Shown here: piece by piece, positions 21,150-61,200 of the stretch
How positions within the stretch are numbered: the first letter of the stretch is position 1
Layout of the letters: the number at the start of each line of letters is the position of its first letter
DNA from: Diploptera punctata
Taxonomy: Eukaryota > Arthropoda > Insecta > Blattodea > Blaberidae
Direction: 5' to 3'
Assembly: GCA_030220185.1 (NCBI GenBank)
Contig: JASPKZ010003845.1
Coordinates: 2,613,501 to 2,677,500 of the forward strand
DNA length: 64,000 nt
The notes under the pieces: model-generated
Database searches by the model: none
What the model was told of the DNA's origin: nothing
What the model saw: the letters and a program-made list of their open reading frames with translations, nothing else
Position numbers and translations under genes: made by a program

Positions 21150-21270
21150 TCGACCTCAACTTATTTAATTTATTTAAAATATAGGCGTTTCAAAAAAAAA
21201 TTCTACTGAGGATGGAACCTGTTTCCGAAAGGCCTAGAGCTTTTAAATATTTTAACAAGTTTGAGTTTGC
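21150..21270. repeat. Foldback repeat FB2
   Basis: The left side CGACCTCAACTTATTTAA and right side (complement) CTCAAACTTGTTAAAATATT form imperfect inverted arms around a hammerhead-like core at 21206-21236. Confidence 0.6.
21203..21240 (+). ncRNA. Hammerhead-ribozyme-like core
   Basis: CTGAGGA (21206-21212, fitting CUGANGA), a stem-loop GGAA...TTCC, GAAA (21227-21230), palindromic AGGCCT (21230-21235) and A as the UH base (21236). Stem I is weak, with a mismatch next to the core. An extra T separates CTGAGGA from stem II. Confidence 0.4.
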
Positions 21271-21342
21271 ATATATACATTTTATAATACAATTTTACTT
21301 TTTAACTGATACTTTAACAGAATTATCATGTATTATAAGAGT

Positions 21343-21462
21343 ATAGTTCTCTCCCTCCCTCCCAACCCTCTCTCCCTCCGTCCCTCCCTCCCTCTCTCCC
21401 TCTATCTCCCCCCCTCTCTCTTTACTTCCCTTTCTCTCTCTTCTTCCCTCTCCCTTTGTTAA
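21343..21462. repeat. Polypyrimidine tract (CCCT/CTCTC)
   Basis: About 120 nt almost free of purines on the plus strand. Such mirror-like tracts can form triplex DNA; nothing else is seen. Confidence 0.85.
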
Positions 21463-21554
21463 ACCAACTTTTTATAAGTATTTTTTGGTGCCTCACGTCA
21501 CCCGGATGTTACAGGAACTGTAGGGAGATAATTTTTAACTTTTATCACTTTTTT

Positions 21555-22205
21555 GCAGACTATTTAAATCATACGCCAAATGGCAGTCAATGACCAATCA
21601 TATTTCAATGAATTTTGATTTACAACTAATCACAGTCTTTTTCACCTCGATTTTATCACTTCCATTTTTACGCTTTCATTTTATCAAGTGGCTCCCAGAT
21701 TGTATATATAGTGCACGGATATAACCAGATTCTGCTTGCGAGATATAATAGAAAAACATTCGTAGCAATTGATTACACCATAAAAAAGAAACCACTGTTT
21801 GCACTTTCTTAAACGTATTATTTCCCAGGAATTAACGTTGCAGAAAAATATAATTGACAAATTTACATCATAGAACATCAGAAATTAATTATTAACCTGT
21901 AATCATGTGTCCTGTTTTCTACACTAGGGTGCATTCTTACAATATTGCGATTCTATTTGGCAGTAAATATGATCTGGTTGCAGTGATGAGCAAATGAAAC
22001 ATAACGTTTCTCATTTGTTTTCAAACATCGCCGTTTACATTAAATATATAAATATTTTAAAATAACTATATTTAAATAATGATTTGTGAGTAAACAGCTT
22101 GATTCTATTCGTTAAATAGTCCTAAGAAATGCCACTCTTGATTTCCAAATTCTCTAGATAAATTCACTCCTCACGAAATTTGGAAATCACTCGTGGCATT
22201 AGTTA
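21555..22205 (+). repeat. Hairpin-ended repeat H, copy 2
   Basis: It matches copy 1 from 'agtcaatgaccaatca' through 'tcatttgttttcaaacatcgcc' to the end hairpin at 22128-22198, whose loop carries extra bases (TCACTCCTCACGA). Confidence 0.65.
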
Positions 22206-22801
22206 TAATAAAAATATTCGAAAATTATGTTCCTAATGCGAAAATACGATCCCATGAAGGATGTAAATGAAGAATGCAGACTTTCTCAAGACGAACTCCA
22301 TATTTTTTACGGCACTTTTTTCCTACAGCAGATTTAGTGGAGTGGCTGTGTGACAATAGAAAAACGATTTTTACAAGATTTGTTTTAATGGTAAACCAAT
22401 GAAGGATAAAATCTTTGGCAGGGACTAGGCATAGGCTATATTAGAGGATAATATTCGGATGCATTTAGAGAATTTTGATGGTGTGAACTGGGAAAATCAG
22501 CAAAATTCGACCATTATAAACGGAAATTTACGTTTCCTTGAAACCCGAAATTAAAAAAAATCGCTCTAGCAGCTGCCATGTTTGCATTGTCGCAATGTAT
22601 CAGTATACCATACAATTTATTTAACCCTTAAAATGCCAATGTATCGTGTAAGATACATTGGTTTAATTCAATATCTATAATAGAGCAATGTAAAAATAAA
22701 TAAGTAGAAATTATTTAAATCTGAACTAGGTTAATAACAGCTGTCAGTACTTCTAAAATTCATTGTAAATCACCGTTGAGGTTATGTAGTAAAATGTTAA
22801 A

Positions 22802-23029
22802 ATATTAAAATAAGTACCAGATATATCAGTCGTCATCAACTACAATGAATTTCTGTTTAATTAAATTTCATCAAGTAGTTAAAGCCATGTAGGCATTTCA
22901 GAAACATTGACATGAAAAGATGCAACATGTTTCTGAAAGGTCTACATGGTTCTAACGACTCGACGAAGTTTTTTTTTAAAGAAATTCATTTTAGTTGAGA
23001 ACGACTGATATATCTGGTACTTATTTTAA
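22802..23029. repeat. Foldback repeat FB3
   Basis: Arms begin TAAAATAAGTACCAGATATA and are mirrored at 23029-23008, with CAGTCGTCATCAAC / GTTGAGAACGACTG further in. The central part holds a decayed version of the hammerhead-like unit (GATGCAAC...GTTTCTGAAAGG, flanked by CATG/CATG). Confidence 0.7.
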
Positions 23030-23200
23030 TCTTCTTCTTCTTATTCTACGTGATGGAATTAGGCCATAGACATGTTTCCACACCAAGAGAGACCGTATCC
23101 TTCCATTTAGTTATGGAGTGCCCAATATTTTTTCTTCCTTTGGTTTGTTAGTGAAGCAAAATTTGTGGGAGTCTATTAGGTGTCATTCTTTCTATATGTC
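23030..23200 (-). pseudogene. LINE 3' fragment
   Basis: Minus-strand piece starting from an (AAG)n-like tail at 23030-23045, with complement motifs of LINE tails ('gtgatggaattaggcc', 'agaccgtatccttcc'). It is short and degenerate. Confidence 0.45.
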
Positions 23201-23420
23201 GGAGTCATTTTAATAACTTACGGTTATGCATAATTTGTTTTCGCTGCAGTCCAACACATTTAGAAAGATGGCATAGGAAACAGTGTACGTTCAATTTAAG
23301 GGTCGACAAAAGAAACATATATTCAGTGAACCAGCAAAATGGGACGATGAATTTGATTTGCTGAAGTGAATTCGATTCGTTTAGGTTACGTAGTTCTTGT
23401 GTGACGGACATTTATTTTGA

Positions 23421-24314
23421 TTCAAATTGGAAAAGTTGCATAACAGGATGTGGGAAGTGGAGTATAGACATGTGGTCAATGAGAAAACAAAGAAAGGAAT
23501 CGGGGAGGAGAATAAATATTAGTTTTGAGAATTCCCCATCGTGAAGCAAAGTGTTTTACTGTGGAACGAGTTTCTCGCACTGGGACGCCTGTTACCATAC
23601 GGCGCGCCCGCTGATATGTCACCAATCATTAACAGACTTCACCAGACGGTGTACATTTCTACTCGCAAATGAAGCTCTTCTCAATATCTTATTCAAGACG
23701 CTTTAACATAATCATATCGCGTCTTAAGATTAGTTGTGTGGTAATAAAAATCTTAAGGAGGCGAATATGTTGATAACATTGGCCAGATGGTGATCTATGA
23801 CCATTTGAGTCTTAACGATTTTTTAATCCGTCTTACAAGGGAACTGACAGCCATGCAATCAGAAACCTATCTTAAAATTTCTCCCAGAGAAGCGTTGTGA
23901 TGTATCAAGGCCGTGTAGAAAAAAATCTGCCTTTTTAATTGCAAGTCACAGAAATCGGAACCAGAAGCAATCCGCTGTGCGGAGTGGAGTGAGGCAGATA
24001 GTGAGGATTACCCATCACATGAGGAGTTGTATTACTTCCCCGTAGTTTAGATGAGAGATTTAGCCTTGGGTTTTAGTTTCTTGCTGTTAAAACGGTAGAT
24101 ATTTTTTAGACATGGCCTTTGTATATCACAACGCCTCTCTGGGAGAAATTTCAAGGTATATTTCGGCATGCAGTGTTTGACAATTCCCTTTTAGAGGCAA
24201 GGAAATACCTTTTTGAAAAAGTGTTATGTCATTCGGATTTTGAACTAACTCAACAGGTAGCATCAGTCGATAGCGTTTTTGTGAATCCGTTTCGATTACT
24301 CATTTAGTTTATTT
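23421..24314. other. No feature recognised
   Basis: A 62-residue frame at 24119-24307 (+) has no recognisable motif and no splice or promoter support. Otherwise nothing. Confidence 0.5.
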
Positions 24315-24478
24315 AACATACTAGAAGTAGAGATTAAGGATAAAATGAGTAAAGAACCGAATGGTTTTATCCAAGGAAGATCATATATGGATAGGGTATA
24401 TTGGCAGTTTTGGAAACATATCACATGTATTGATTTAGAAAAAGATTATGACTCTATTCCACGCCATTTGTTATAAGG
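24315..24478 (+). pseudogene. Reverse transcriptase fragment
   Basis: KDKMSKEPNGFIQGRSYMD followed by CIDLEKDYDSIPRHLL gives the RT 'FR.GRS..D' block and the 'F.DL.KAYDS.PR' catalytic block of a LINE. The sequence is cut by a TAA right after. Confidence 0.7.
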
Positions 24479-24769
24479 AATTTTCAGGGGTCAATCTCAA
24501 CGTTGCCTCGAGGATACATATGGCGATAAGTGTATGTGACAAATCCTGAGAAAAGCTGCCCGCTAGAACACTGGCAGCTCTGTTGACAAGTCTTGCTCCT
24601 ATGTTCATGTCGTGGCCCCCTGATCACTGATCAGTGCGTTGTTATTCAATATTGTAGCAGACGGGAGAGAATATAGGCGAGAAGATCTGACAAGACTGAC
24701 ATAATAAAGTAATAATTAACTTTTTAAGAATCCACACTATGATGTTTTATTTATTTAAGTAAAATTTTA

Positions 24770-24905
24770 TCAACCCACCTCATAATTCTTCTTCGTCTTC
24801 TTAGACTAGTTTCGGATCTTTATTCGGTTCCATCATCAGTCACTGACGGAAGATGCGAAACTAGTGTAAGAAGAGGAAGAACATGAGGTGAGGCGATAAA
24901 CATTT
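24770..24905. repeat. Foldback repeat FB4
   Basis: Arms AAATTTTATC..CCACCTCATAATTCTTC and (complement) AAATGTTTATCGCCTCACCTCA are inverted partners around 24835. The core on the minus strand is annotated separately. The plus-strand partner at 24843 reads CTGACGG and is degenerate. Confidence 0.7.
24800..24842 (-). ncRNA. Hammerhead-ribozyme-like core
   Basis: Minus strand: CTGATGA (24839-24833), imperfect stem GGA...TCC, GAAA (24813-24810), palindromic ACTAGT (24810-24805), then C (24804). The cleavage triplet would be the classical GUC. Stem I pairing is poor. Confidence 0.4.
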
Positions 24906-24989
24906 TACTTAATTAACTTATCAATTATTCAGCTTGAATTTATAGAAGACATAAAATAAGAAGCAGCGTAATTAAACAAAATATGAATG

Positions 24990-25215
24990 TTCGAACTTCA
25001 GTGAATTTCATAAAAAAACGAACAATTAAAACTATATCGTCATGTAAAAATAATGATAAAAAAATATTCCCAAGAAGAATTCTAGATTGCGTGCCACTTG
25101 GTAAAAGAAGATGACGGCCAAAAATAACGTGGACTAATAGTGTTTTGAGCAGCTTGAGGGAGAAAAAGATTGGCGATAGAGATTGGAATGACAGATGTGG
25201 AGGAGAATGATAGTA
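24990..25215 (+). pseudogene. LINE 3' fragment
   Basis: The pieces KKIFPRRILDCVPLGKRR, RPKITWTNSVLSSLREKK and GDRDWNDRC resemble the LINE tail 'G..R.RGRPK.TW...' and '...DR..W'. Several frame changes are present. Confidence 0.55.
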
Positions 25216-26214
25216 CATTAATTGAGCGCAGGAAGATGTTATGAAACATTGTGATACCTGCTAAATAAATTAATTAGTATGTGAAGACAATCAGAAAAGG
25301 GATATGTGTATAAAAATACAGGTTTCACAATATTAACTTAGTTGATTATTATAAGAAACAACAAACTTGCGAAAATGTTCCTCTGCAAGTTGAAACACCA
25401 CTCTAATACAACCTCCCTGATTTCGAATGCATGCTGCACAACGGTCATAGATTTTTCTTAACTTCACGTCCAATTCTAGTTTGGGAACATTCAATACAGA
25501 AGCTGGTTGTTTTAGCATTATTTCATCTCTCTCCGGGAGTCGCACCCCACGCATCCTATTAACATTTCACTCTTGTGCAAAATACGGCACTTTTAACTAG
25601 AATATCCACATTACTGCTGTCGTCAGCCTCACTTCCTTTTAAGTGCGATATATTACTGTGTCTGTCATATCCAGGACTATGACTTATATACAAGTGTTCA
25701 ATATGTCCATATGCCATTAATATTTAATTCTTATTTTGAGATGCTTTAACGTATAATGTCATTTCAAATCTCTTTATATATTTTATTTTTTAATGATATC
25801 GAGAAATGATGAGTGTGATCAAGTAAGTCCTGATATAGATGAACTTGGAAATGAACCTGCGCCACAGTCCACTTTCACGTTCTGCGCAGATTGTTAGTAG
25901 TGGGGGTCAGTCTAGAGTTGAGCTTGTGTGTGTTAGATTATCTCTCAACCAGTACGTGCTAACCGTGTTGTATTAATTCCCAGTCGAAGTAGACTTGGAG
26001 TATATCTAGTATAACTCAGCCTATTGGATCGCTCACCAATTGATTTTGTTCCCGCATAGTACGGTCACGTAAGTAGGCTACTTCAAATTTACAATATTCA
26101 TTTCCAGTGTACAGACATAATGAGATTCCAATGTGGCATTTGCCTTGACTGTTGTGGAGAAAATTAAAAAAATAAACCCCTGGTAGTCAGCACCAGAGTT
26201 TGAACATGATTTCC
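25216..26214. other. No gene recognised
   Basis: A 73-residue minus frame at 25333-25554 (LELDVKLRKIYDRCAACIRN, then QGGCIRVVFQLAEEHFRKF) loosely resembles the C-terminus of a mariner-type transposase. I could not support it with ends or catalytic motifs. Confidence 0.35.
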
Positions 26215-26862
26215 CGAATACTAGTCTGATACTTATTTCAAGGTGTAGATCCTGCCAGAAGTAAAATTGTACTTGGCAGTAAAATTTTGGAGCAGGTGAA
26301 TAATTTTACATATCTAGGATGCAATATCTCATATGAAGAAGAAAAGCATGGAAATGCAAAAATATCTAAATTTTTAAGAATTTTAGGGTTAATAAATTCT
26401 ATCTTCAAGCCACAGTTAGTCCAAAAACATTCAAGACTAAAAGTGTATAAAAAACTGGCTCTTCCAACTCTTTTGTAAGGTAGCGAAGTATGGACGTTGA
26501 AACAGAAGGATATACACAGACTTAGATCTGCTGAAATGAGATACCTTCGGAGGACTGCAGGATACACACTACTAGATCACACACAAAAAAAAAAAAAAAA
26601 AAGAAGACATCTTAGAAGAATTACACATGGAAACTTTAGAAAACAACATTTCTGATTATAAGTCAAGATGGATACAACATGTTCATCGAATGGAAGATCA
26701 CAGGATACCCAAACAATGTTAAGATATCAACCTGCAGGAAGAAGAAGACCAGGACATCCACTCTAAAGACTTCTGGACGGTGTTTCTCTTGAGGCCGAAA
26801 CAGGTCAACAAATGGCCTAAATTCGTGAATGTACTATGATGATGATGATGATAGTCTGATAC
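26215..26862 (+). pseudogene. LINE-B 3' half
   Basis: Coding remnant after the RT palm: EQVNNFTYLGCNISYEEEKH, ILGLINSIFKPQLVQKHSR, LYKKLALPTLL-type 'KVYKKLALPTLL', a stop, WTLKQKDIHRLRSAEMRYLR, DYKSRWIQHVHRMEDHRIPK. The trailer ends in (ATG)n at 26836-26860. An A17 run at 26585-26602 breaks the frame. This copy holds the empty-site sequence GATTATAAG for the CACTG transposon at 16293-18542. Confidence 0.8.
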
Positions 26863-26877
26863 TGTTCTCCTTGCTCG

Positions 26878-26879
<2 letters not shown>

Positions 26880-26924
<45 letters not shown>
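26880..26924. repeat. (TTA)n microsatellite
   Basis: About 14 TTA units; it lies between LINE-B and a LINE-A fragment. Confidence 0.9.
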
Positions 26925-32589: not shown

Positions 32590-34838
32590 CACTGGGGAAC
32601 AAAAAAAATATTTTTTTCTTGGTGCCTGAAATTTTTCACCTGATTCTGGGTATTTCGGCACTGCTGATTCCAAAAATGTCATCCATTTTGTTGCAGCAGC
32701 TCTAGTTTGCAAGATATTGATGATACTGCTCTTATGTACCACCATTGTAAATCGATTGTTTGCATAATACTAATTGATTTAATCCAAGTTATATTCATGT
32801 TGTTGTTGCCGTTTGCATATGTAATTTTACTAATTTGACAATTGTTTATCCTTTTTCTAGACTGACATGGCTTCAACACGAAGAAAATGTGTGAATAATC
32901 CTGATGTGTTTTGTTTCATCTGTGGGGAGTACACATTCACTCAACAAAGAAAACCTATAACTGACTTTGTAAGAAGAGCTTATTTGGCCTATTTCAAAGT
33001 ACAACTGGGAGATCAAGATAAGCCTTGGGCACCTCACATTGTATGTAAAACGTGCACAGAGCATCTACGACAATGGACAAATGGGAAACGGAAATGCTTG
33101 AAATTTGGGGAACCAATGATCTGGCGAGAACAAATAACCATAGTGATGACTGCTATTTTTGTTCAGTCAATGTAAAGGGCATCAATAGCAAAACCGGAAT
33201 AGATGGGTATATCCCAATCTACGCTCCGCAAGACGCCCTGTTCCACATTCAGAGGAGATACCTGTTCCAATTTTTACCAGTCTTCCAGAGTCACCAGAAG
33301 AAGAGGATGATTCAACTGAAAGCTATTCTGAGGGAAATGACAGCGATTTCCCAGGACCTTCATCAGTTTCATCCGGTTTTAGTCAAGCGGAACTGAACGA
33401 CCTCATAAGGGATCTAAGTCTTCCAAAGAAGTCATCTGAGTTGTTAGCTTCCAGGCTGGCAGAGAAACAATGTCTGTTACCGGGAACAAAGGTCACAGTC
33501 TATCGCAAAGAGAAACAGACTTCCTGCCATTCTTCACAGTAGAAAATCAATTGTTTTTTTGTATGAATGTTGAAGGACTGTTAATGAAGCTGGGTGTAAG
33601 AAAATACACACCAAGTGAATGGCGGTTATTTATAGATAGCTCCAAACGCAGCCTAAAATGTGTTCTTTTGCATAATGGGAACATATACAGGTCAATCCCA
33701 ATTGGTCACTCAGTTTCTATGCGTGAAAATCAACATACAACAGCTACAGTGCTAGAGAAGATCTCTTACCGTGATCACCAATGGGTAATGTGTGTCGATC
33801 TCAAGATGGTGAATTTTCTTCTAGGACAACAAGGTGGGTACACCAAATACCCATGCTTTATATGTTTATGGGACTCTAGAGCCAAAGATCAACATTGGGT
33901 GAGAAGGCATTGGCCTCTTAGAGAAAGCATGACCGTTGGAGAAAAAAACATCGTTGCAGAACCTTTGGTTGACAGAAACAACATCATCTTGCCACCAACT
34001 GCATATTAAACTTGGTTTAATGAAACAGTTCATCAAGGCGTTGAATAGAGATGGAACATGTTTTGGCTACATATGTACAAAATTTCCTGCACTGAGTAAG
34101 GAAAAAATAAAAGCAGGTATATTGGATGGACCACAAATCCGCCAACTTATTAATGACCATCAATTTCAAGACTCAATGAATGATACTGAAGCAGCCGCAT
34201 GGTCTTCGTTCTGTATGGTAGTGAAGAATTCCTTGGAAACTATAAGTCTCCTAATAGTGATGAACTAGTGGAGAATATGCTCACTGCTTTTTGTGCACTA
34301 GGTTGTAACATGAGCATCAAATTACACTACCTACACAGTCATTTGGATCGATTTCCAGACAATCTTGGAGATGTAAGTGAGGAACAGGGTGAGCGTTTTC
34401 ACCAGGAATTAAGTACAATGGAAGAAAGGTATCGTGGACGGTGGGATATACATATGATGGCGGACTACTGTTGGAGCATCCACCGAGAATGTCCAAGATC
34501 ATTGCATCGGAGGAAATCACAGAAACGGGGATTCTGCGACCTGATGGAGGAAAATTAATGATTCTAACGAGACTAATGTGTAAATAAATTATGGTAGTTA
34601 TATAGATACAGTTGTTTCATGAAAAAGAAAGTATTTGTTCTTTTGTATTTAATTGTATGCGAGTAATATAGTTGTATATGTGGACCAGTATTTTTGAACT
34701 GGTATATAATTTGAATAAACTCTATCTCAAAAACTAGAGCTGATAGGACGAAACTGAAATCATCTTTGGAATCAGTGACCCAAATATACCCATAAATAGG
34801 TGAAAACATTAAGGCACCAAAATCACTGTTCCCCAGTG
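32590..34838 (+). mobile_element. CACTG-ended DNA transposon, copy 2 (2249 bp)
   Basis: Inverted relative to copy 1 (16293-18542) and close to identical by reading. The terminal CACTGGGGAAC / GTTCCCCAGTG is flanked by TTA at 32587-32589 and 34839-34841. The target differs from that of copy 1, so this is an independent transposition, not a segmental duplication. Confidence 0.88.
32867..34558 (+). pseudogene. Transposase-like gene of CACTG element, copy 2
   Basis: Same protein as in copy 1, from MASTRRKCVNN at 32867 to DLMEEN and a TAA at 34556. Landmarks in order: CFICGEYTF, CKTCTEHLRQWTNGKRK, an acidic PEEEDDSTE segment, FIDSSKRSLKCV, CVDLKMVNFLLGQQGGYTKY, CFICLWDSR, HIKLGLMKQFIKALNRDG, ERFHQELSTMEERY. 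Total length is about 560 codons. Lesions differ from copy 1: single-base losses near 33140, 33512 and 34228 and an extra base near 33996. Because none of the breaks are shared, both copies probably came from an intact source and decayed, or were mutated, after insertion. Confidence 0.8.
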
Positions 34839-34844
34839 TTATCT

Positions 34845-36520: not shown

Positions 36521-36839
36521 TGTAAAATAATTGAAAATCCACAGAAATTGTTATGAGACCATGGTCATGGTTCAGACATTTGTTTTTGTATTTAAGTTTA
36601 AGATTGTTTTTAATTAAGTATATTTTCAGTTTTTATGTTTGTTATGGAAACATTTAAAAATGGAAAACTGGGGTCGTGGTTTAAATTTCGGTTGTGCAAT
36701 TCACTCATTAACAGATGTTTCTCACGGACTTTCCAAAATATTTTTTTTACTAAAAATGATTTTTTATAGGTTCATCTTTATGAAATGTTTCATGTGTACG
36801 GAAATAAGCGTATCTAAATTGTGCTAAACGTCAAAATTT
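36521..36839. other. No feature recognised
   Basis: AT-rich; nothing assigned. Confidence 0.5.
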
Positions 36840-36935
36840 ATAAAATAAATACCTGATATACCAGTCGTCCTCAGCTAAAATGAATAGTTATGGACGACTG
36901 ATATCAGCTACTTATTTTAACATTTTACTACATAA
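36840..36935. repeat. Foldback repeat FB5 (internally deleted)
   Basis: The ends TAAATACCTGATATACCAGT and (complement) AAATAAGTAGCTGATATCAG with CGTCCTCAGC / GGACGACTG form a short inverted pair. The central unit found in other foldbacks is missing. Its right flank ('acattttactacataacctc') matches the flank of FB3 in complement. Confidence 0.65.
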
Positions 36936-40124: not shown

Positions 40125-40619
40125 TATTTACGCCGTGCGTGGACTGCAACTGCTTAAGCAGGCGCGCTTTGCATACAGTCTATATAACTATCTGTAGGCG
40201 TAAACAACTGTCAACTGATTTTTCTCACTGTGTTTAAATACATCTTAATGTACTGGAAATTTAAGTTTTATTAAGCACTTTGTTTCTACAGAGACGTGAC
40301 GCTTTTTTTAACAATCAACGTTGTAATAATTTTTTTTTGTAGAGATACATTCGTATGTATTATATGAATATGTATGTGTAATTCATTTTACGAAATATAG
40401 CGTTAACTATAATTGAGGCGAGGATTTTTAAACACTATAGGAATAAGATTTCAACATAGTATAACGAATAGTAAGACTCCCTTATGTAATCAGTTGAAAA
40501 TAATGTAATTATTAATATCGAAGTTTTATAAAGTATTTATTTTAATCAACACTCGTGACAGCTGTTTCAATACACTGTAGGGAAGCAGGAATTCGTATGT
40601 AAAGAATTATAATTATTAC
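40125..40619. other. No feature recognised
   Basis: Nothing assigned. Confidence 0.5.
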
Positions 40620-41430
40620 TAATATAATATTCGCCGGTGTGCAAAGAAATGGGAAGCTACCACTCCTATAAATCCCTAGAAAAGATGCAAGCATAGCATG
40701 AAAATGCTATGGTTGCAGTGAAAGACCTGCCCTTGATCAGAACACTATAGAATATATATTTCTTGGTCATGATAGTTTACAACATTTAATACATCATTTT
40801 TTATTTAAAATTTAAAAGATGTGATTCATTTGAAACCAATTGGGAATTCAATAACTTTTTGCTATTCTTTAATTTATTCATTTCTAAATTTCTAAAAGTT
40901 CTTTTGTTACAAACATGTACAACTTTAAAATTTGAATTAAAACAATGATCATATTTAAGTAAGTGGTTAGCTTATTTTGAAGTATCTAGATTTCTATTAT
41001 ATGCTGTAATATTCATATTGAAGTAAGTGGTTGGCGTATTTTGAAGTATCTAGATATCTGTTATATGCTCTGATAGAAATCTAGATACATCAAAATACGC
41101 TAACCACTTACTTCAATATGATCATTGTTTTAATTCAAATTTCAAAGTTTTACATGTTTTTAACAAAAGAAAAATTTAAAAAGAGCAAAAAGTTATTGAA
41201 TTCCCAATTCGCTTTAAATGAATCGCATCTTTTAAAATTTGAAATAAAAAATGATGTATTAAATGTTGTAAACTACCATGACCAAGAAATATATATTCTA
41301 TAGTGTTCTGATCAAGGGCAGGTCTTTCACTGCAACCATAGCATTTTCATGCTATGCTTGCATCTTTTGTAGGGATTTATAGGAGTGGTAGCTTCCCGTT
41401 TCTTTCCACACCGGTGAATATTATAATAGT
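40620..41430. repeat. ~800-bp palindrome containing SINE B ends
   Basis: Left arm 40620-about 41000 and right arm about 41055-41430 are inverted copies. Each carries a SINE B 3' end (CCGGTGTG...CATGAAAATGCTATGGTTGC), then 'aacactatagaatatatatt', 'catgatagtttacaacattt', 'caattgggaattcaataac' and 'agtggttagc'. The centre holds a direct duplication of 'aagtaagtggttRgcKtattttgaagtatctagat' (about 40960 and 41020, read in pieces). The 61-residue frame in the right arm is a by-product. Confidence 0.88.
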
Positions 41431-41605
41431 AATAATAATAATGATGATGGGCAGATGATGCTTGGGGGCGCTTGGGCCTTAAAGCTTCCTTACATTTGTC
41501 TTACAGGTGAGGAAAAAACAGCGGAAAAAATCTCACCCAGGAAGCTTTTCCCGACCGGGGATCGAACCCGGGCCCGCTGCGTGACCACAGCGGTAGACTA
41601 TATAC
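41300..41605 (-). mobile_element. SINE family B, copy 6
   Basis: A minus-strand SINE B that starts inside the palindrome's right arm and continues outside it to the head (GGTTCGATCCCCGG in complement, about 41555). Most of the internal region and head exist only on this side. Confidence 0.8.
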
Positions 41606-47100: not shown

Positions 47101-47750
47101 AAGTAAAAAGTAATTTAAACCCTATACTAACTAGTGTCCGACGTTATACCAGATCGAGGAGTGAAATGAGATGAAATCCTTATTAAAACCTGGTTTAAAC
47201 TAGCTTTGACCGTTATCGTAGTCATCAGTAAATTGTTACGCCTTTTTACCAATCTTAAATGTTTCACAAGGCATAGAATATTACATCGCCACTCTTTTAA
47301 AAAAAAAACTCGTAGGCTAAGTCTTATTTTTCACGGATTTGTATATTTGGTTAATATAAAAAAACTTAGTGGCATTACACCCTAAATATCCTAGAGACAA
47401 TGTAATGTAGGTCAAAGTCGCCCAAACGCAATTTGTTTTGCGGGTCAAATGGAAAAAATATCAAGATGGCGCAGGCAGTAGGCTCTATTTAGATGTTGTT
47501 ATAAGCGTATGTTGTTGATTTGCTACTTTTCTTTAAATGTCGTTATAACATATTTCACAAGTTCTTATTCCATTACTGATAGACTAGCATATTTTAATTT
47601 ATTAGAATGCTACAGCCCTTTAGAGGCCGGATAGAATGTGACGGAGGGCAGTATCTGACCCGCGGCTGTAGTTTGTGTGTCCTTGATCTGTACTAATAAA
47701 ATTCATATGAAATTCAGTTGAGGTGAATAGTCATAATATAAAGTTAAACA
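47101..47750. other. No feature recognised
   Basis: Unassigned. Confidence 0.5.
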
Positions 47751-47817
47751 TAAAATGTACCTGTTGGTTGGTGCCGTCGTCCTCAACCTTGTTAAAATGA
47801 TGTATGTAAAATATTAA

Positions 47818-47855
47818 CTGGAGGCCTTTCGCAAGTTAATTTCCATCATCAGCAG
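47818..47855 (-). ncRNA. Hammerhead-ribozyme-like core (left arm of FB6)
   Basis: Minus strand, in order: CTG (stem I), CTGATGA (47852-47846), a stem-loop, GAAA (47830-47827), palindromic AGGCCT (47827-47822), C (47821, cleavage base, CUC), CAG (stem I, 47820-47818). All core bases of CUGANGA and GAAA are intact. An extra T precedes stem II, and stem II has one mismatch here. Confidence 0.45.
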
Positions 47856-47938
47856 GTTGAGCGTCTGCTACTAGTTATTGTTGTTTACTTGGAGTCTACA
47901 TCGTCGCAAACAACAATAACTAGTAGCTGAAGCTCAGC

Positions 47939-47976
47939 CTACTGATAATGGAAATTAACTTCCGAAAGGCCTCCAG
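47939..47976 (+). ncRNA. Hammerhead-ribozyme-like core (right arm of FB6)
   Basis: CTGATAA (47942-47948; one change from CTGANGA), perfect stem GGAA...TTCC, GAAA (47964-47967), AGGCCT, C, CAG. Mutated at one core base, so probably inactive. Confidence 0.35.
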
Positions 47977-48050
47977 TTAATATTTTATATACATCATTTT
48001 AACAAGGTTGAGGACGACGGCACCTGCCAACAGGTACATTTTAATTTTTA

Positions 48051-48845
48051 ACTTTTATCCTTGATCTAGATGTTAGAACGTCTATAAGCAAGTGTATGTA
48101 AAAATCACGAGGTTAATTTTTTCCCCCTCCTGTAAAATTTGTTTTTTTTTTTACTGTGTTTTCACAGAAAGTTTATATGCAAGTCAGCTGTTTTCTAAAT
48201 TTACTCTTTATAATTTTAGGCAAATCCGAGAAGTCTGGCGACGTTAAACTGAATAGTAAGATTAATATAATTCATGAATTATTATGGTACAGTCAACAGA
48301 GAATCAAGTAAAAAACAAATGTTGAGATAATTGACTAAAGAGATTAATCACTGTATGTGTAACATTGTAATAGACATTGATGATGACCCTAATAAGAGAC
48401 AGTCTCCCTGCATCTCAATAATCTAGCTGTCCCTTTCTAGCAGCGTTGCCACATAGAAAAATCCTCCTTGTATATTACAATCTAGAAAAAAAAGCCTATG
48501 TAAGAAATACAACTCAATTAACTAGACCATTACATGGGTATATAGCGGTGCGTGTCCTTTTAAACAAGGACTTGGTGTTAAAACAGCCTGGAGTTGTAAT
48601 GAATTGGCCACACAACCACAAAACCTCATGTACACTGACATCCAAAAGTAATCTACTCGCAAAGCGAAATTTCCACATATTCGAGTTTGGATTTTTATTA
48701 CCTAAAAATCACTAAAATATGCACACAGAAATATGTTATAATCTAAAATTTATAAAAAATATCCACTTAAACATAAAATATATATACATGGAAGGTAATA
48801 TTTACAGTTAGATGATTATTTGAAAAAAGAAATGAGTTAAGTCCA
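48051..48845. other. No gene recognised; weak terminal-exon candidate at 48220-48311
   Basis: A TTATAATTTTAG acceptor is followed by an open phase reading KSEKSGDVKLNSKINIIHEL to a TAA at 48309. The acceptor is modest and the peptide unrecognised. The frame at 48446-48715 has no motif. Confidence 0.2.
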
Positions 48846-51699: not shown

Positions 51700-51755
51700 A
51701 ATGTGTACCGGTACCTTGAAGGCCCGTCTCCTCAACTTCTTAGACTATTAAACAA

Positions 51756-51790
51756 CTGGAGGTCTTTCGGGACTAGACCCATCATCAATA
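51756..51790 (-). ncRNA. Hammerhead-ribozyme-like core (left arm of FB7)
   Basis: Minus strand: TTGATGA (one change from CTGANGA), stem GGG...CCC, GAAA (51768-51765), AGACCT (not fully palindromic), C, CAG. One core substitution. Confidence 0.35.
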
Positions 51791-51838
51791 GAAATATGCC
51801 TACTTCATCGAGGGTTAATGAAATAGATTAGCTACTTT

Positions 51839-51874
51839 CTGCTGATGATGGGACAGTCCCGAAAGGCCCTACAG
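51839..51874 (+). ncRNA. Hammerhead-ribozyme-like core (right arm of FB7)
   Basis: CTG (51839-51841), CTGATGA (51842-51848), an extra T then stem GGGAC-A-GTCCC, GAAA (51861-51864), AGGCCCT (51864-51870), A (51871, UH), CAG (51872-51874) pairing with the first CTG. The core is intact. With FB6 left arm, the best candidate in the window. Confidence 0.45.
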
Positions 51875-51944
51875 TTGTGTAATAGTCTAAGAAGTTGAGG
51901 AGACTGATCTTGAAGATACACTATTTTATAATTTTATATTAGTA

Positions 51945-52556
51945 GTAGCATACCCTTGTGTCCTCAGTGAGACAAGGCGTTCTCCCTCTACAGGGGAGAA
52001 ATTCAACTATAGTAATATAGTTACACTTGTTTTCCTATAGATGTCATTGAGTGGCTCAGGGTCAGCGTTCCGCCTCATTGTGGCATTCTAGGAAACCAAG
52101 ATATACGACAACCCAAGATATAAGACATATCCAAAAGACCATTATGACCGAAGAACTTAATCTTTCAATTCGAAAACACACACACAATAAACTCTAAGAG
52201 TGAAAATTCTCTGTCATTAGAGACACTAAAGCCAGATACACCCATGGCAAACACCAGAAGTGATAAGTCATGACGCCTTAATTAGGCCGTCGATAGCAAA
52301 CACGCCATTCTCTAGAAGGTGCAGGTATGTACTAGGATGGGAACGTTCGGTAATTTTGCGCAGATGCTTTTTTATTCAGGCTTGTTGTTCTTGTACGAGC
52401 CTGAAAATCTTCAGACTCGGGACATACTGCTTAAAAGTCCCTCCCAGAGGAGTTGTCCCTTGGATTTTTCCAATTTATCGACCACGGCCGGGTTTCAACC
52501 CGAGACCCTCTCGGAATTAGAGGCAAGGATCATATCCACTAGACCACTGCGGACGA
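51945..52556 (-). mobile_element. SINE family A, copy 10, apparently interrupted
   Basis: The minus-strand 3' part is 51945-52096 ('ctctacaggggagaaatt', 'ttccgcctcattgtgg', 'aggaaaccaag'). Body and head are 52330-52556 ('tattcaggcttgttg', GGGTTTCAACCC, 'ccactagaccactgcgg'). About 230 bp between (52097-52325) is foreign. I see no inverted ends there. Confidence 0.75.
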
Positions 52557-53300
52557 TTATTTTTATTATTATCTTAATATTGTGACTAACGCCTCAACGG
52601 AGTTTTATTATGAATTTTATTATTGAGAGGAGTTACTGTGTTGTGGAGATGACTGTACGAGGTACAGTAAAAAAGGAAGAAGATACCGGTATGAACTAAA
52701 AGCACACAAAGTCAGTCAGTATTATATACTTGAACAAATTGGATTAATAAATTTTACGTTAAGACAAGGATCACTATAGCGTACATCCGAGTTGATAAAT
52801 TTTAGAGCAAGGGGTTTTTAATTGCACAAATTATCTTGTAAACTCGACGTGTCGGGTTACCAACATGGCCGCTAGGTGAGCTACCAGCGACAGCACAAGA
52901 AGTGTCATACGTCGTTTTAGATATCTCTGCAGGGGTCCCATTAGCAATATTTCATATTTACTACAATTAAAATTGTGTTTCGGTGTTAGGGGTTTGATAA
53001 AAAATAGCGCTTTTACTGTCGGCAAATCTTAATCTTACACCCGTGATTTATATCTCTCATAATTTATACAAGAAGTTTGGTTCATTTATGTTTTTAAAAA
53101 AAAAAGCGACATTAGAAAAGCTTTAGTTCAAACTCATATAGTCTATTTACAGAAAGAGAAAATTGATGTAAACGCATTTAATAATAATAGTCATTGCATC
53201 TTCGAAAACTTTACACATCCTTAAAATTTATTGCATTTTTTTTTATTTTGGATCCTTACTACCACATGCGAATTTTGTCCTTAAGAATTAAATTTGTTAT
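52557..53300. other. No feature recognised
   Basis: A 64-residue minus frame at 52831-53025 with a hydrophobic middle has no recognised motif. The rest is unassigned. Confidence 0.45.
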
Positions 53301-55505: not shown

Positions 55506-55604
55506 ATCTACATCAGGGATACCCAGATTTTTGTTTTTATCCCTGCCCAAATAGAAGAAACAAGAAGATGTAGGGCAATACTATAGCTGTTAAGTAAGAA
55601 TTAA

Positions 55605-55935
55605 TATGTTCTCTGCTGTGATCTCGGGGCAATGTTACCTCGTAAGTAAAAGGTCCTGGTTCTATCCCCGGACAGGGCAATTTCCCTGTGTGAGATTTTT
55701 CATCGCCTATAAGAAAAACTGCCTGGAATTTTAAAGCTACAAATAGCAAATTGTCCCCAGAATACCATTTGGCTATCATAATTATTCTAAAACTTTCAAC
55801 CTTGTTCAGTATGAATGAGTTAGTGAATGTTATGTCTTGTCTTAAATGTTTTCTTGGAAGAGCTCCCGCACTGAACTAATCCCTCTTTCTGGAATGATCT
55901 CCACGTCAAAGAAAGTATATATGTGATCCAAATTT
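55605..55935 (+). mobile_element. SINE family B, copy 9 (long 3' subfamily)
   Basis: 'ctctgctgtgatctcgggg', B-box GGTTCTATCCCC, body, and the 3' end 'gtcttgtcttaaatgtt', 'actgaactaatccctc'. Confidence 0.75.
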
Positions 55936-56077
55936 TAAACATCCTCTCCCGATAGATCGTGTCACTGAAGGCACGAATGGCATAAGACATGTAGCTATTG
56001 AACTTTTATAGGAATAAATCACTATGAGGTTTAATTTAAGATAAAATCAAATGTTTCATAATTAATCTTCTAAGCAG

Positions 56078-56116
56078 ATCGCGTTTTCGGGGTCATGACA
56101 AAGCCATCCTCAGTAC
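56078..56116 (-). ncRNA. Hammerhead-ribozyme-like core downstream of Penelope ORF
   Basis: Minus strand: CTGAGGA (56113-56107), a stem region with internal GTCATGAC hairpin, GAAA (56088-56085), CGCG palindrome, then ATC. Stem I can pair through A-U, U-G, G-C, G-U (GGTA with TGCT). Confidence 0.4.
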
Positions 56117-56490
56117 CGTTTTGCTAACTAATGTTATGTCGATCGGAAGAACCACTTCTTCTTCCCTCTGTTGGTGGACCGACAAACCTCTGAATCAGGT
56201 TAGAATTCGCGGGAATTTCGAAGTTCATAAGTTTTTATTTGTTTTTCTGAATGTGGATTTTTTCCCAAACCTTCAGTTCCTTTTGTTTATCTATTTGTTT
56301 AATTAGACTAGCTTTTGATTCAATTAGATGTTTTTCGGATCAAGCATGAGCAGCTACTGCTGACTTTTCCACTTCTCAATTTTTGACATTCTTAAGATTT
56401 TTTTCGCCCTTGTTTTCAAATTTCTTTTTGTTTTTCCTATATACATTTTGTCACAATCCCTGCATATCAGAATCAAATGTGACAACATTA
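56078..56490 (-). pseudogene. Penelope-like element, GIY-YIG end and 3' flank
   Basis: Read on the minus strand from about 56470: a C.DC..YIGKTKRNL pattern split by a frameshift (DSDMQG.., then NVYRKNKKKFENKG), EVEKSAVAAHA, HLIESKASLIKQIDKQKELK, VWEKIHIQKNK and MNFEIPANSNLIQRFVG. This order (YIGKTKR...R..EH...SA.A.H) is the GIY-YIG endonuclease that follows the RT in Penelope-like retroelements and nicks the target. Downstream (3') at 56113-56078 is a hammerhead-like core, where such elements are known to carry one. Only the C-terminal end survives, with stops. Confidence 0.65.
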
Positions 56491-56564
56491 ATATCTCGAA
56501 GAGCGGAGAGGATCGTCCTTCGGACTAAAAAACCCATTCCAAATTCAGGTCTCGTTGCAATTTA

Positions 56565-57036
56565 TATAAAACTGCTAATATCCCAGTGTTTATATGGATG
56601 CAAAACATGGACTCTTACTTTAAGGAAGGAGAAAAAGATTACGAGTATTTGAGATAAAAATTCTAGGAAATGGACCAAAGAAAGATTATCGTAACAGGCA
56701 GGCGAATGGAAAAGATTGGATAACAGTGAGCTACATGATCTTTGTAGGAAATAAGATATAATAAGAACAGTTAAATCTCACAGTCTGCGAAGAACAAGAC
56801 ATGTGGCACGAATGGGGAATGCAATAAGAGCATTGAAGCTTCTTGTAAGAAAACACGAAAAACCCCAGTTGGTAGAGCAAGAATGAGGTGAGATGAGAAT
56901 AACATTAACCGTGATTTGAAAGACGTATATTATACAGATGTTGATTGGAAAACATTAGCTCAGGATGGAGATGTGTGGAGAGCTTATGTCCCCACGGCCA
57001 AACCTACGGGTTCGATAGTGCCAACGAGTTAGTTAG
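56565..57036 (+). pseudogene. LINE-A 3' fragment
   Basis: SQCLYGCKTWTLTLRKEKKI, then degenerate 'ctcacagtctgcgaagaac', 'ggcacgaatggggaatgc', 'aagaatgaggtgagatgag', and 'ggttcgatagtgccaac'. Multiple indels. Confidence 0.75.
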
Positions 57037-57117
57037 GAGCAGCTCTTATTGTAATGTGGATGGTGTTCAGTAGAAAAGGACACGGGGGTTTTAAAGTGAG
57101 AAAAAAATCGTATGTGT

Positions 57118-57190
57118 CCATTGATACCTTGATAGCTCAAAGGGAGAATGCCAAAGTTGGAGATTCTTGGTTCAAATCCCGGTTTTCAGG
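57118..57190 (+). mobile_element. tRNA-like SINE head
   Basis: A-box-like TAGCTCAAAGGGAGAATGCC and B-box GGTTCAAATCCCGG. The following 'tttttaatttttag' looks non-tRNA, and the acceptor stem does not pair, so this is not a functional tRNA. Confidence 0.5.
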
Positions 57191-57499
57191 CATTTTTTTT
57201 AATTTTTAGTTGTATGTATTTTTTTATTTGGATGCCGTCTTTGTGACAAGTGGTACCTAAAATTGTACAATTTTAACTTTTCCATCCTAAGCTTACTGAT
57301 AAAAACAAAGTGATCCCAATACAGGCTTTAGGAGGCCCTTGGGGTAGTAGGAAGTGAAGACCCCTATCTAACTAGCCGATGCGTACGAGTTGTCAGCCCT
57401 GCGTGATGGCCGCCGTTTTCCCAAAAAATACTTATGATGCTCATTTCTGTTAGAGGAATGAATCGACCACAGGAGCATGATGGCGCCAGAAGGTTTGGG

Positions 57500-57585
57500 C
57501 CAGTTTAAAAATCCAGACCCTCGGAACTCTAATCCACAGCCTTCAGACTTGTAACATATTGCCTTAACCAACTAAGGTATGGAGA
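57500..57585 (-). mobile_element. tRNA-like SINE head
   Basis: Minus strand: CCTTAGTTGGTTAAGGC (A-box-like), then a decayed B-box (GGATTAGAGTTCCGAGGG). Minor family, single copy. Confidence 0.45.
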
Positions 57586-57599
57586 TATACAAGTAACGT

Positions 57600-58129
57600 C
57601 ATTAATTATGTCATATACAGGGTGGAAGTAATGTAAGTGCGCAGATTTTAAGTGTAAATTCCTTATGGTAAATATAATCAAAACGCCTTCTCGTTTTGTG
57701 CTACAAATGTGCAGTTTCTTGAAAAAAAAAACATACAGGATTAATTTATTGGTGCATTAATTTATAATGATGGAATGCAGTGGTCCGAGTTTTACACAAT
57801 ACAAAGGAAATGTGAAATGGAACAACTTTTTCCTTTAGTATTTTTCAATAAAATTCATAATAGCCTCTACAATATTGCCAATTTCCCCTTTTATAATAAC
57901 AATTAAAATGTTTATATATTTTCTTTAATTTAATTTATGTTAAAATAGATCATGGAATTAAAAATACCTAAATGGAATAGTTGGTTCATTTCACGTCTCC
58001 TATATAGGCCTATTGTGTGAAACTCAAATACTCGTCACCATTATGAAGTAATGCACCAACAAATTTATGCACCAAAATTTGTTTACTGAAAAAAAAAAAC
58101 TACATTTACTGCCTTACATTTAAGATTTA
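57600..58129. other. No element defined
   Basis: TACAGGGTGGAAGTAATG near 57613 looks like a typical TA-flanked transposon end, but I could not find its inverted partner. Confidence 0.35.
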
Positions 58130-58495
58130 ATTAGCAAGCCTTGCACTTTGCTGCGGCAGTGAGGCATGGACTTCGAGGAAAGGGAGGAAAGCAGGATAAC
58201 TTCTAGTGTATGAGATATACAGTAGAATCCGCCAAGTGGGATTCCAAACGTAATGATGATGCCTTGAAGGAACTACGTTTAGAACCAGTCATTAAGTTCA
58301 TAAAAGATGCCACATTAACTGGATGAATCATTTCCGACGAATGAGTTCAGAGAGAGTTCTCAAAGCCATGTTTCATATTGTCCAACCGGGATGAGATCTC
58401 TGGGCCATCGAAGGAAGCGCTGGATACAAAATTGATCAGTGAGATATTAACAGGCCTCTAGGCGTAAAACTTGTGCGGATGAAGAAGAAAAAGAA
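58130..58495 (+). pseudogene. LINE 3'-region fragment
   Basis: LALCCGSEAWTSRKGRK followed, across frame changes, by NHFRRMSSERVLKAMFH and trailing '(AAG)n' at 58480-58496. The GSEAWT and H..RM..ER pattern fits RTE-like tails. Confidence 0.6.
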
Positions 58496-58539
58496 GATAA
58501 ATTTATAAGTTATTTTGATTATGTATTTTAAAATACCTT

Positions 58540-59420
58540 TTCGGGATTCTTGGTCATGTCTTGCAGATTCATCACCTACTGTGGGTGACATCTTTCGCGA
58601 GATATTGCTTATGTAAATTTTCGTAGTAAACTGCTAACTAGTTATAAACTTGCGCGTTTTTGCCTAACTATGTATATTAGTAAATCATTTCTAATTGGTT
58701 GATATTAAACGTAGAACAGCTCACCAATTTGCTGTTTCATTGTAGAAGTCATGACTTACTATATTTGTCGTAAAGTTTTATCTGACACTTTTCTAGGGCA
58801 GGATACCATGTTTTATTAATTCTAAAACCTTCCTCTTTTCTCTTAAAAATTTGTCTATGTTTTTATATCTTCAATAGCTTCTCTGTTCCATCAAGTATAA
58901 TAATGCATGGCATTACATAAAACCTGAGTGTCATTAAATCAGATCACGTGATTAGTATTATGAAAATCAGCTACAGCTGATTTCTCTGATTGACCATGTT
59001 GACAGTGTCTTATGTGTTCTTTAATCATGGCATTAACTGATCGTTTAGTAGATCCAATATAAAACTTTCCACAACCGCATAGGATACGGATACACACCAT
59101 CCTAAAAGTTTAGAATCTCTAATATCTTTGGTAGATCATATTCTTGAAGCTTTTAGTAGGTCTCCGTATGTACGGTTTTAATTTAATGTTTCTGAAGGAA
59201 GTTTACCTATAAGATCTGAAACTTTATGAATATAAGGCAAAAAGGTTTTTCCTGTAATGTCTTTGTTTTTGATTATATTTACCACAAGGAATTTATACTC
59301 AAATTCTGCACACTAAATTTCTTCCATTCTGTATATCTTAATGGTACTCGCTCTATACCTTTAATTCACATTTAGGGCTTAAACTCGTTTGAACACCCGT
59401 TAGTTAGTGTCCGCTGGCTA
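58540..59420 (-). pseudogene. Penelope-like element, C-terminal RT/GIY-YIG remnant
   Basis: Minus strand: KTFLPYIHKVSDLIGKLPSE (the segment linking RT and endonuclease), then VCIRILCGCGKFYIGSTKRS and VNAMIKEHIRHCQHGQSEKS, AVADFHNTNHV. The C.CGK.YIG.TKR..N..I.EH pattern with SE.SA.A.H is the GIY-YIG endonuclease of Penelope-like elements. In-frame stops follow (after NHVI and in the WNREAIEDIK segment). About 180 bp further 3' (58575-58539) lies a hammerhead-like but altered core: GTGATGA, CGAAAAGG. Upstream RT blocks are not recognisable beyond about 59420. Confidence 0.75.
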
Positions 59421-60189
59421 TAGTATTTATTAGAATGTATATCTACTCTCCCATCTGATGCAGTTTGCAGTTGTGGTCATATCTCGCTGTAAATTGAAAA
59501 ACATCCATCAAAAGTAATTGGTTAGATCTGTCTAACTAGGTCGATCATTTTCTAGTGCTGACACCTTTCAATCAGTCCAGTGAGCGCTTTATGTAGTGCG
59601 TTAGTTAAATTCCCACAGGGATGCCAACTTGATTTGCAGACTTATTCAATATTCACTTATGTCAGTTTGAGTGCGTGGCTTTTATACAATTTTACGATAT
59701 AATTCACAATTCAGACTTTACGTAATTTGCAGCACAGACCATACATTTATTTATTCACTTGTCTCTTACAATGTTAGTCATCATGTTAGCTAGTTTCATT
59801 TAAGGAAATAACACTCATAAAATTTACATTTGTTGACGTGTGCAATAGTTTATTTGAATACCATGGAGCAATTTCCTGAAATTTTAAGAATTTAAGACCA
59901 ATACAACAATAACCTGATGTCCATAAACTTTATTGGCATTTCAGTATGTATTTGCAATTGAATCGTTGATTTTGTAAAGGAGTCCTCTACATTTTTACAA
60001 AAATTTACAAGAGAAGCAAAAAAGCATTACATTCCGCCGTATAATTTACAGGTTAATCAATTTTTAGCATTACACATTAAGTATAAATGTCTACATAATA
60101 ATTTATGGCCCCACAGGAAGTCCAAGAAAATTATGTTTACCGTTCGTAGAAAACCCATTTTCAAAATTAATCTATGTTTGTAATAGTAG
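59421..60189. other. No feature recognised
   Basis: May contain decayed Penelope RT; I could not confirm any block. Confidence 0.45.
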
Positions 60190-60460
60190 TAGTAGTTTCT
60201 GTTACTTCTCTTCGAATCATAAGGCCTTTGTGAAATTACGATAACGTATTTTTTTTACCAAATTTCTGAATTCACTCCAACTTTTCCCTTGTTGTTTAAT
60301 TTCTGTTATTACAGTGCTGCGCCATATGGTTTTTGGTCTTCCTGTTATTCTAGGCAATTCCTGTGTATTCCCGTCCAGATCTCTCTTTGGTACACTGTCT
60401 AGTTCTCTTCTGAGAGTGTCTCCAATCCATTTCTATTTGCGATATTTAATCTCCTTCCAG
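60190..60460 (-). pseudogene. RTE-like LINE C-terminal fragment
   Basis: Minus strand: KWIGDTLRRELDSVPKRDLD, GNTQELPRITGRPKTIWRST, VITEIKQQGKSWSEFRNLVK, then KIRYRNFTKAL-like sequence before a (CTA)n tail at 60184-60195. This is the classic 'WIGHTLRR...GRP..TWRR' end. Confidence 0.75.
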
Positions 60461-60989
60461 ATATTATGATCTGCTTATATTACATAACTTTTGCTTTTTT
60501 CTTTTTTCTTTTTTTTTTTTTTTGTGTAGGAAAAACAAACAGGGTGTCCAGATTTGCACCACTACCTGTATGATAGAAATGGTTAAGAAAATTTTATTGG
60601 AAATTCATTAGGAAAAATAACATCAGGGGCATGGGTGAGGATAGTAATCGGATGGATCTTACGGAACTGGATTATATAAATAGTATTGAGTTAGCTGAGG
60701 ATAACGGAATGACCATTAGAAACACCTTGTCCTGTGGCCGGCAACCTTAATTAAGGGGAAAAGCCAATAGACGGTAAATATAATATTTCTATTGTTGAGC
60801 CTAACTCTCGGTTAAATTTCATAGCAAGATGTTCGTTAGCGTCGTTTTACGGGCTTGAGAATCACTTAATTGCATATTAGTTGGGTATTTATGAATAAAA
60901 TACCCTAAATGGATCGAAACTCCTAGTGTAGGCCTAGGTGGGGATGCTAATATTAAGGTTAATTTTCAGTTACAATATTATAATCATAA
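60461..60989. other. No clear element
   Basis: A T-run is at 60499-60524. A piece at 60600-60700 ('gaactggattatata', 'ttagctgaggataacgg') loosely resembles the LINE-A 3' end. Confidence 0.4.
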
Positions 60990-61200
60990 CATAAAATCAT
61001 GTCTGCTCAACTCCTTAGATTATTAAAAAAACTGTAGGTCTTTCGGGACTAGCACCATCATAAGCAGAAGGAAGTACTTCATCGAAGGCCAATGAAAATA
61101 TATCTGCTTCCTTTTGCTGATGAGGTACTAGTCACGAAAGTCTAGAGTTTTTAATAGACTAAGAAGTTGAGACGGGCCTTCGAGATACATATTTCCATAA
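60990..61200. repeat. Foldback repeat FB8
   Basis: Arms around 61090: 'tgctcaactccttagattatt' against complement of 'aatagactaagaagttgaga'. Same subfamily as FB7. Confidence 0.75.
61115..61147 (+). ncRNA. Hammerhead-ribozyme-like core (right arm of FB8)
   Basis: CTGATGA (61117-61123) and GAAA (61136-61139) are intact, but stem II (GGTACTAGTCAC) and stem III (AGTCT) pair poorly. Left-arm partner reads CTTATGA. Confidence 0.3.

Follow-up and report, generated by a model that had tools for sequence, protein, structure and literature searches.

Minimal type I hammerhead ribozymes of Penelope-like elements (PLEs) were reportedly described by Cervera and de la Pena in 2014 and by Lunse, Weinberg and Breaker in 2017. 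We analysed a 64-kb stretch of the Diploptera punctata genome (assembly GCA_030220185.1, contig JASPKZ010003845.1, positions 2,613,501 to 2,677,500), hereafter the window, in which short foldback repeats carry motifs resembling such ribozymes. Minimal PLE hammerheads are already described in passages of PMC6155905, PMC7761336, PMC6466107 and PMC10085705. According to excerpts of PMC3846280, the Penelope elements of bdelloid rotifers have inverted pseudo-long terminal repeats (pLTRs), a target-site duplication of 8-10 bp and an optional tail that belongs to one inverted copy; the same excerpts give head-to-head as the most frequent order of PLE copies. In PAc, a Poseidon-type PLE of the anole, both strands are cut and extended, and two reverse-transcription starts bound the tail (PMC11167929, in part). 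With a high degree of confidence, we regard the cores of the window as minimal, dimer-type hammerheads of PLE 3′ ends, and the foldbacks around them as two 5′-truncated PLE 3′ ends placed head to head.

Genome-wide occurrence and stem covariation of the motif

The same assembly (3.12 Gb) was searched with exact patterns, each accompanied by its reversed pattern as a control. The form CTGATGATGG..CGAAAGGCC gave 7295 matches and CTGATGATGG..CCGAAAC gave 3370, with no match for either reversed control. The form in which N7 is not T was found 16,101 times (13 for the control), and the form whose extra base is not T 24,049 times (52 for the control), this base being mostly A among the 100 places listed. 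The four patterns returned 50,815 exact motif copies in total; the CTGATGATGG patterns differ in the letter after GAAA, and a rare double count of one core is possible in this number. The genome-wide excess over the reversed controls was overwhelming. The form lacking the extra base had 151 matches against 14 for its control, some of them being plain deletions within the main families. G8 was rarely changed (3560 altered matches versus 522 in the control), whereas N7 was free. Genomic copies carried the hammerhead core CUGANGA...GAAA together with U16.1 and H17, and H17 was not G in 30 of the 31 palindrome-bearing families.

The stems were compared among 121 distinct copies from the fetched loci, from which identical copies had been removed before families, stems and cores were counted (L169-L188 overlap L131-L168). 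The 115 copies with one extra base, those of the window included, fell into 42 families by their flanks. The copies had been gathered with patterns fixing the core and GG..CC, and the first two pairs of stem II were uninformative and not counted. Pairs 3 to 6 of stem II were paired (G-U included) in 37/42, 36/42, 33/42 and 24/28 families, respectively, with many pair types, and pair 7 in 2/12; in the shortest hairpins, pairs 5-6 would imply loops below three bases. At stem III, 30 of the 42 families had a perfect A...T palindrome, six bases or longer, compared with 40 of 588 control positions downstream, and eight different palindromes occurred: AGGCCT, AGCGCT, AGATCT, ACTAGT, ACTGCAGT, ATCGCGAT, ACAGCTGT and ACCGCGGT. 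The first three pairs of stem I were Watson-Crick in 66 of 90 cells, while swapping of the partners gave a mean of 43.4 (sd 3.7) and none of 5000 swaps reached 66. The stem I types included CTG/CAG, CTA/TAG, ATA/TAT, GTA/TAC and CAG/CTG. The 42 families are related and the cells are therefore not independent; yet for several palindromes and several kinds of stem I both sides differ. Across the families of this one genome the three stems covary around the core, and these are therefore genuine minimal hammerhead folds. Judged from this comparison, the window motif is such a fold, and its catalysis is predicted. The reading of an earlier note on the window, that these are minimal hammerheads of the PLE kind, was upheld by the family covariation and by the location in PLE 3′ ends described below.

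A further feature of the families is one additional base, either U or A, that separates A9 from stem II. The extra U had previously been raised as a caveat against a hammerhead, an argument that falls, as the base is conserved in families and is present in complete hammerheads of viral contigs. A search of viral contigs for CTGANGATGG..CCGAAAC yielded at least 120 stretches, and among the contigs read, complete three-stem hammerheads with a U at this place were found in L001, L018 (three), L029, L040 and L056 (two). When nine viral-contig loci were tested, the extra-base hammerheads of L001, L018 and L056 remained below the Rfam gathering score, and a separate ordinary hammerhead in L003 reached it. 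The AGGCCT and ACTAGT forms had no match in the viral contigs, and one scan of the genome contig collection was likewise empty. In the passages of PMC10085705, known alignments contain at most one or two inserted bases beside CUGAnGA. The main objection to calling the window repeats hammerheads, the extra base, is thereby removed.

Location of the motif in PLE 3′ ends and orientation of the copies

Twenty five-kb stretches upstream of ribozyme copies were inspected, and domain scans were limited to the long frames of L172 and L177. RVT_1 was detected in frames of both, above the cut-off (1.2e-12 and 1.2e-8, respectively), and GIY-YIG in two L177 frames, once at the Pfam cut-off (1.4e-4) and once below it (2.4e-3). 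The coding order is that of a PLE, reverse transcriptase (RT) and then GIY-YIG, with the former above the cut-off and the latter at or below it. Both GIY-YIG frames cross the ribozyme in frame to a stop beyond it and end with ..NPADDGTSPESATVK and ..HSADDGTSPERPTEF; in the first, U4 of the core is replaced by C, and one of the two gave, in addition, a weak match to DUF1854 below the threshold. L181 and L184 show additional fragments of a protein of this type. Behind RT and GIY-YIG coding, the PLE 3′ end has the hammerhead, a TGAGG block about 25-65 bases further on, and then an inner end point and a tail with a complementary CCTCA. Untailed copies stop at the inner end point. TGAGG and the CCTCA of the tail can pair around this point in 27 of 62 distinct block-bearing copies, versus 2-3 of 62 for three permuted motifs. 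The pair takes the form GTTGAGG/CCTCAAC in one family set and TATGAGG/CCTCATA in another (L134, L190-L217 and window positions 47690-48057). Tail-arm homology inside single loci was not significant, since 31 to 165 of 200 shuffles reached the same-locus score.

The orientation of neighbouring cores was determined for the first 100 listed places of three genome searches, with neighbours taken within 3 kb. In 47 of 57 cases a minus-strand core was followed by a plus-strand core, in one the order was plus then minus, and in nine both lay on the same strand; the minus-plus spacing ranged from 48 to 1959 bp. Forty fetched loci comprised 24 with a single core, 15 with a minus-plus pair and one with two minus cores. 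To map the tails, the F51 3′ end (309 positions) served as the reference, and 12 of the 40 loci matched it on both strands. In 11 of these 12, only one outer end had the tail, the two ends lying at 307-309 and 260-279 of the reference. Pairs in longer stretches agreed with this pattern (309/271 in L177 and 266/309 in L173). The outer ends of the pairs were flanked by target repeats of 10-13 exact bases in 6 of 11 cases and of 8 bases in two more, one of them simple sequence, while with swapped flanks none of 110 pairs shared 10 bases (maximum 9). The pairs show inverted pLTRs, target-site repeats and a tail on one side, as PLE insertions do. The two-arm arrangement, which the earlier note did not know from described elements, matches the head-to-head inverted pLTR insertion reported for PLEs in the excerpts of PMC3846280. 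The motif lies on both strands because the same PLE 3′ end entered the site twice, once in each direction.

Copies within the window

The earlier note had listed loci at 21.2, 24.8, 47.8-48.0, 51.7-51.9 and 61.1 kb with the succession CTGANGA, hairpin, GAAA, palindrome and UH, and this succession was found at all five. Each of them aligns, at 67-86% in the stretch compared, to fetched PLE 3′ ends. One core per arm, as it had further claimed, was present at 47, 51 and 61 kb; at 21 and 24 kb only a single arm has it.

The best-preserved head-to-head insertion of PLE 3′ ends occupies positions 47690-48057 on the plus strand and consists of a tail with an antisense copy, a spacer and an untailed sense copy. 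Its inverted arms (47736-47886 and 47908-48058) are 90% alike, and both align to PLE 3′ ends, e.g., L144, at 81-86%. The left target-site repeat TCCTTGATCT, 10 bases long and read directly, lies at 47680-47689 (plus strand) and its right copy at 48058-48067. The left-arm core (47827-47852, minus strand) reads CTGATGA-U-...GAAA, with the second pair of stem II broken, and the right-arm core (47942-47973, plus strand) has G8 changed to A (CTGATAA), AGGCCT as stem III, and H17. The best core of the window, at 51842-51871 on the plus strand, reads CTGATGA-U-GGGAC A GTCCC-GAAA-GGCCCU-A, followed by CAG; it matches the L134 family, and its stem III is one base longer than the palindrome. It belongs to a foldback of head-to-head PLE 3′ ends at 51711-51919 (minimum arm extent), the opposite arm of which has a core at 51765-51788 (minus strand) with C3 changed to U. 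A further foldback of this kind spans 61006-61171, with a match to L134 that extends to 61243; its right-arm core (61117-61139, plus strand) has CTGATGA without the extra base and its left-arm core (61041-61064, minus strand) has G5 changed to U. The single-arm cores read CTGAGGA-U-GGAA..UUCC-GAAA-GGCCU-A at 21206-21236 on the plus strand (83% to L236) and CTGATGA-U-GGA..UCC-GAAA-CUAGU-C at 24810-24839 on the minus strand (81% to L214). In the other arm at 24 kb, about 24845-24915, the core is lost. Altogether, three of the ten arms have core substitutions (those of the right arm at 47 kb and the left arms at 51 and 61 kb), and the motif is gone from two (left at 21 kb, right at 24 kb). The extra U that had been ascribed to every copy follows A9, ahead of stem II, in all window arms with a core apart from the right arm at 61 kb.

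A strict descriptor matched the window twice (0.4 matches expected; no more than 2 in any of 60 order-1 Markov sequences), and a looser one matched five times at a score of at least 30 (0.83 expected; no more than 4 in any of 30 Markov sequences); the excess over chance within the window is therefore modest. The looser match at 60,695 lies outside any foldback and is probably due to chance.

Copies beyond those listed earlier were recognised at 2.1-2.3, 22.8-23.0, 36.8-36.9 and 56.0-56.2 kb, all of them probable, together with a tail-only fragment at 52.56-52.62 kb. A probable foldback at 2107-2329 has an eroded minus-strand core (..TTTGAAAATGGAACCAGTTCCGAAAGCTC..) and short matches to L244 (86% over 35 bases). 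At 22801-23033 lies a probable, decayed head-to-head copy in which the cores are eroded and GAAAGGTCTACATG is retained; this segment was part of the profiles used in the profile search, so that its matches there arise by construction. Its flank is common to 36834-36926, a probable head-to-head copy with a short L244 match, from which the centre, including the ribozyme, is missing. A PLE 3′ end with a decayed core (CTGAGGA from 56113 downwards) was identified at 56056-56164 on the minus strand, 87% identical to L234. The tail-region fragment without a ribozyme (52562-52624, minus strand; nhmmer 4.7e-8) adjoins a tRNA-like repeat; by eye, the region 52300-52640 comprises the PLE tail fragment and then an apparent tRNA-derived short interspersed repeat.

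Other features of the window include a protein-coding repeat in two near-identical copies (98-100%) of opposite orientation, about 14-17 kb apart, at 16289-18538 and 32595-34842. A large nested palindrome at 40606-41442 forms a 753 bp foldback (84%) without CTGANGA or CGAAA. A near-perfect palindrome of 149 bp with GATCCTCAAC in its arms lies at 10823-10971 and has a sub-threshold microRNA match.

Folding and proposed insertion mechanism

Several observations weigh against the assignment to PLE hammerheads inserted head to head. No Rfam hammerhead model matched the 64-kb window, either at the gathering score or at E values up to 10, so that this previously suggested check was negative, and the ten fetched genomic loci searched with the same models at E up to 10 gave no match. 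The microRNA models of Rfam matched long hairpins in the window and in these ten loci, always below gathering. When the sequences were read directly, the unsubstituted CTGANGA and GAAA were present in five of the ten window arms (21R, 24L, 47L, 51R and 61R; L and R denote left and right). In 12 of the 42 families stem III has no perfect palindrome that reaches six bases, and 5 of the 11 pairs lack a target repeat of at least 10 bases. The twelfth both-strand locus, L150, does not have the one-tail pattern in its own stretch; in L175, a longer stretch of the same place, the left end carries a piece of the tail and the right match ends at 226. Of six pairs of the ACTGCAGT family inspected by eye, four were clearly one-tailed and one carried CCTCATA at either end; the sixth allowed no judgement. 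The 20 five-kb stretches, whose ORFs were truncated wherever read, yielded no recognisable complete pLTR-ORF-pLTR copy.

Element identity, head-to-head orientation, target repeats, the one-sided tail and covarying stems were directly observed in this analysis, and an insertion mechanism can be proposed around them. Both DNA strands would be cut some 10-13 bp apart, and each cut 3′ end could then prime its own cDNA from the PLE RNA, one starting at the end of the tail and the other at the inner point. Such priming from both sides of the cut would be in line with the biochemistry of the anole PLE. The two 5′-truncated cDNAs would be joined head to head, giving a foldback flanked by the target repeat, and, provided that neither cDNA is too short, each arm would carry the ribozyme, the two lying on opposite strands. 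With stem III being merely a palindrome, a complete fold would need two copies, either in tandem or on two molecules, and we infer cleavage as a dimer.

The unit and dimer folding recommended earlier did not prove an active dimer. With the core held open, monomers formed no stem III, and the AGGCCT copy formed stems I and II. In dimers of the ACTGCAGT and ATCGCGAT types, the stem III duplex was formed and stem II kept, with stem I open, whereas the AGGCCT dimer preferred an intermolecular duplex of its palindromic stem II. The RNA of the 51.7-kb foldback, the only one folded, formed a rod (251 nt, -116.8 kcal/mol, z -14.6) with the core hidden in a long hairpin. As the ribozyme is locked in this way, single window copies are probably silent relics.

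The purpose of the ribozyme may be approached from the same data. The anole ribozyme requires protein for its cleavage and is dispensable for insertion in vitro (PMC11167929, in part); a review calls the role of PLE ribozymes a mystery (PMC7761336, in part). We consider it possible, though unlikely, that the palindromic stem III mainly joins two PLE RNAs in the manner of a retroviral dimer linkage, so that one particle would hold two templates, one per cut strand. The product would then be head-to-head insertions that are tailed at one end only, and cleavage would be a by-product or a later step. Such a linkage would explain why most families retain a palindrome while its letters change, as well as anole insertion without ribozyme activity. 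Whatever the purpose of PLE ribozymes, the family set is large enough for it to be tested by covariation and experiment.

Alternative explanations

Three other origins of the repeats were considered, and all of them (a retrozyme or viroid circle, a DNA foldback transposon and conservation for coding only) were rejected. The foldbacks could be non-autonomous retrozymes or viroid-like, small circular rod RNAs with one hammerhead per polarity that are copied back into DNA, as would fit the rod of the 51.7-kb foldback RNA, in which ribozymes of opposite polarity face each other. PLE coding, however, continues upstream of the ribozyme, the minus-plus core distances reveal no fixed unit, the outer ends differ by one tail, and among the loci read, a local tandem duplication occurred in L132 only. 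The short, constant-unit tandem repeats without coding that mark metazoan retrozymes were not found, and we rate this origin as highly improbable. A DNA foldback or miniature inverted-repeat transposable element, with palindromes that are hammerhead-like by chance or descent, would account for inverted repeats flanked by direct repeats of 10-13 bp, but its probability appears slighter still. Terminal inverted repeats of such an element should extend equally to both ends, while the one-sided tail of 11/12 loci makes the ends unequal; the repeats are 5′-truncated ends of a retroelement with RT and endonuclease coding, many fetched loci (24/40) have a single core, and the stems covary around the pattern-fixed core. 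Hardly any likelihood is left for a core kept for the protein alone ([AT][DE]DG codons at the end of the PLE ORF, with no RNA fold), which the in-frame motif at the end of two L177 ORFs would suit, given the compensatory substitutions of all three stems and the GGAAGTTAACTTCC-type families that, if framed like L177, stop in loop II yet keep GAAA and the palindrome.

Comparison with known systems

As far as the published excerpts go, the copies of D. punctata share with minimal PLE hammerheads the core, a tiny or missing stem III loop, the expected dimer activity, the place in the terminal repeat and massive dispersal in an animal genome. They differ in that the stems can be traced through 42 families of one genome, an extra U or A is conserved and the frame of the upstream ORF enters the core in the copies read. 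The literature passages contained neither the diversity within a single genome nor the conservation of the extra base, the reading frame that enters the ribozyme, the count of single tails or the TGAGG/CCTCA pair; the primary papers on PLE hammerheads may report some of them. One tail per head-to-head pair, if it holds genome-wide, would be a sharp constraint on PLE insertion.

With PAc, as described in the passages of PMC11167929, the present elements have in common a hammerhead at the pLTR-ORF junction and, by the mechanism proposed here, the cutting of both strands and two starts that bound the tail. The PAc ORF begins at stem II, whereas here the upstream frame of L177 ends behind the ribozyme, and, unlike in PAc, the ATG that lies within the core of AGGCCT families opens no more than a short frame, as judged by eye. 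Metazoan retrozymes (PMC7229834, in part) and viroids with hammerheads on both strands likewise combine hammerheads, self-paired RNA and both polarities; the repeats studied here, in contrast, have no tandem units and no fixed size and are joined to PLE coding. Compared with the bdelloid Penelope in the excerpts of PMC3846280, the foldback copies seen here are reduced to 3′ ends, so that the inverted pLTRs resemble stand-alone foldbacks. The analysis identifies the hammerhead-bearing foldbacks of the window: their arrangement is not a new element and represents a known kind of PLE insertion, present in tens of thousands of motif copies.

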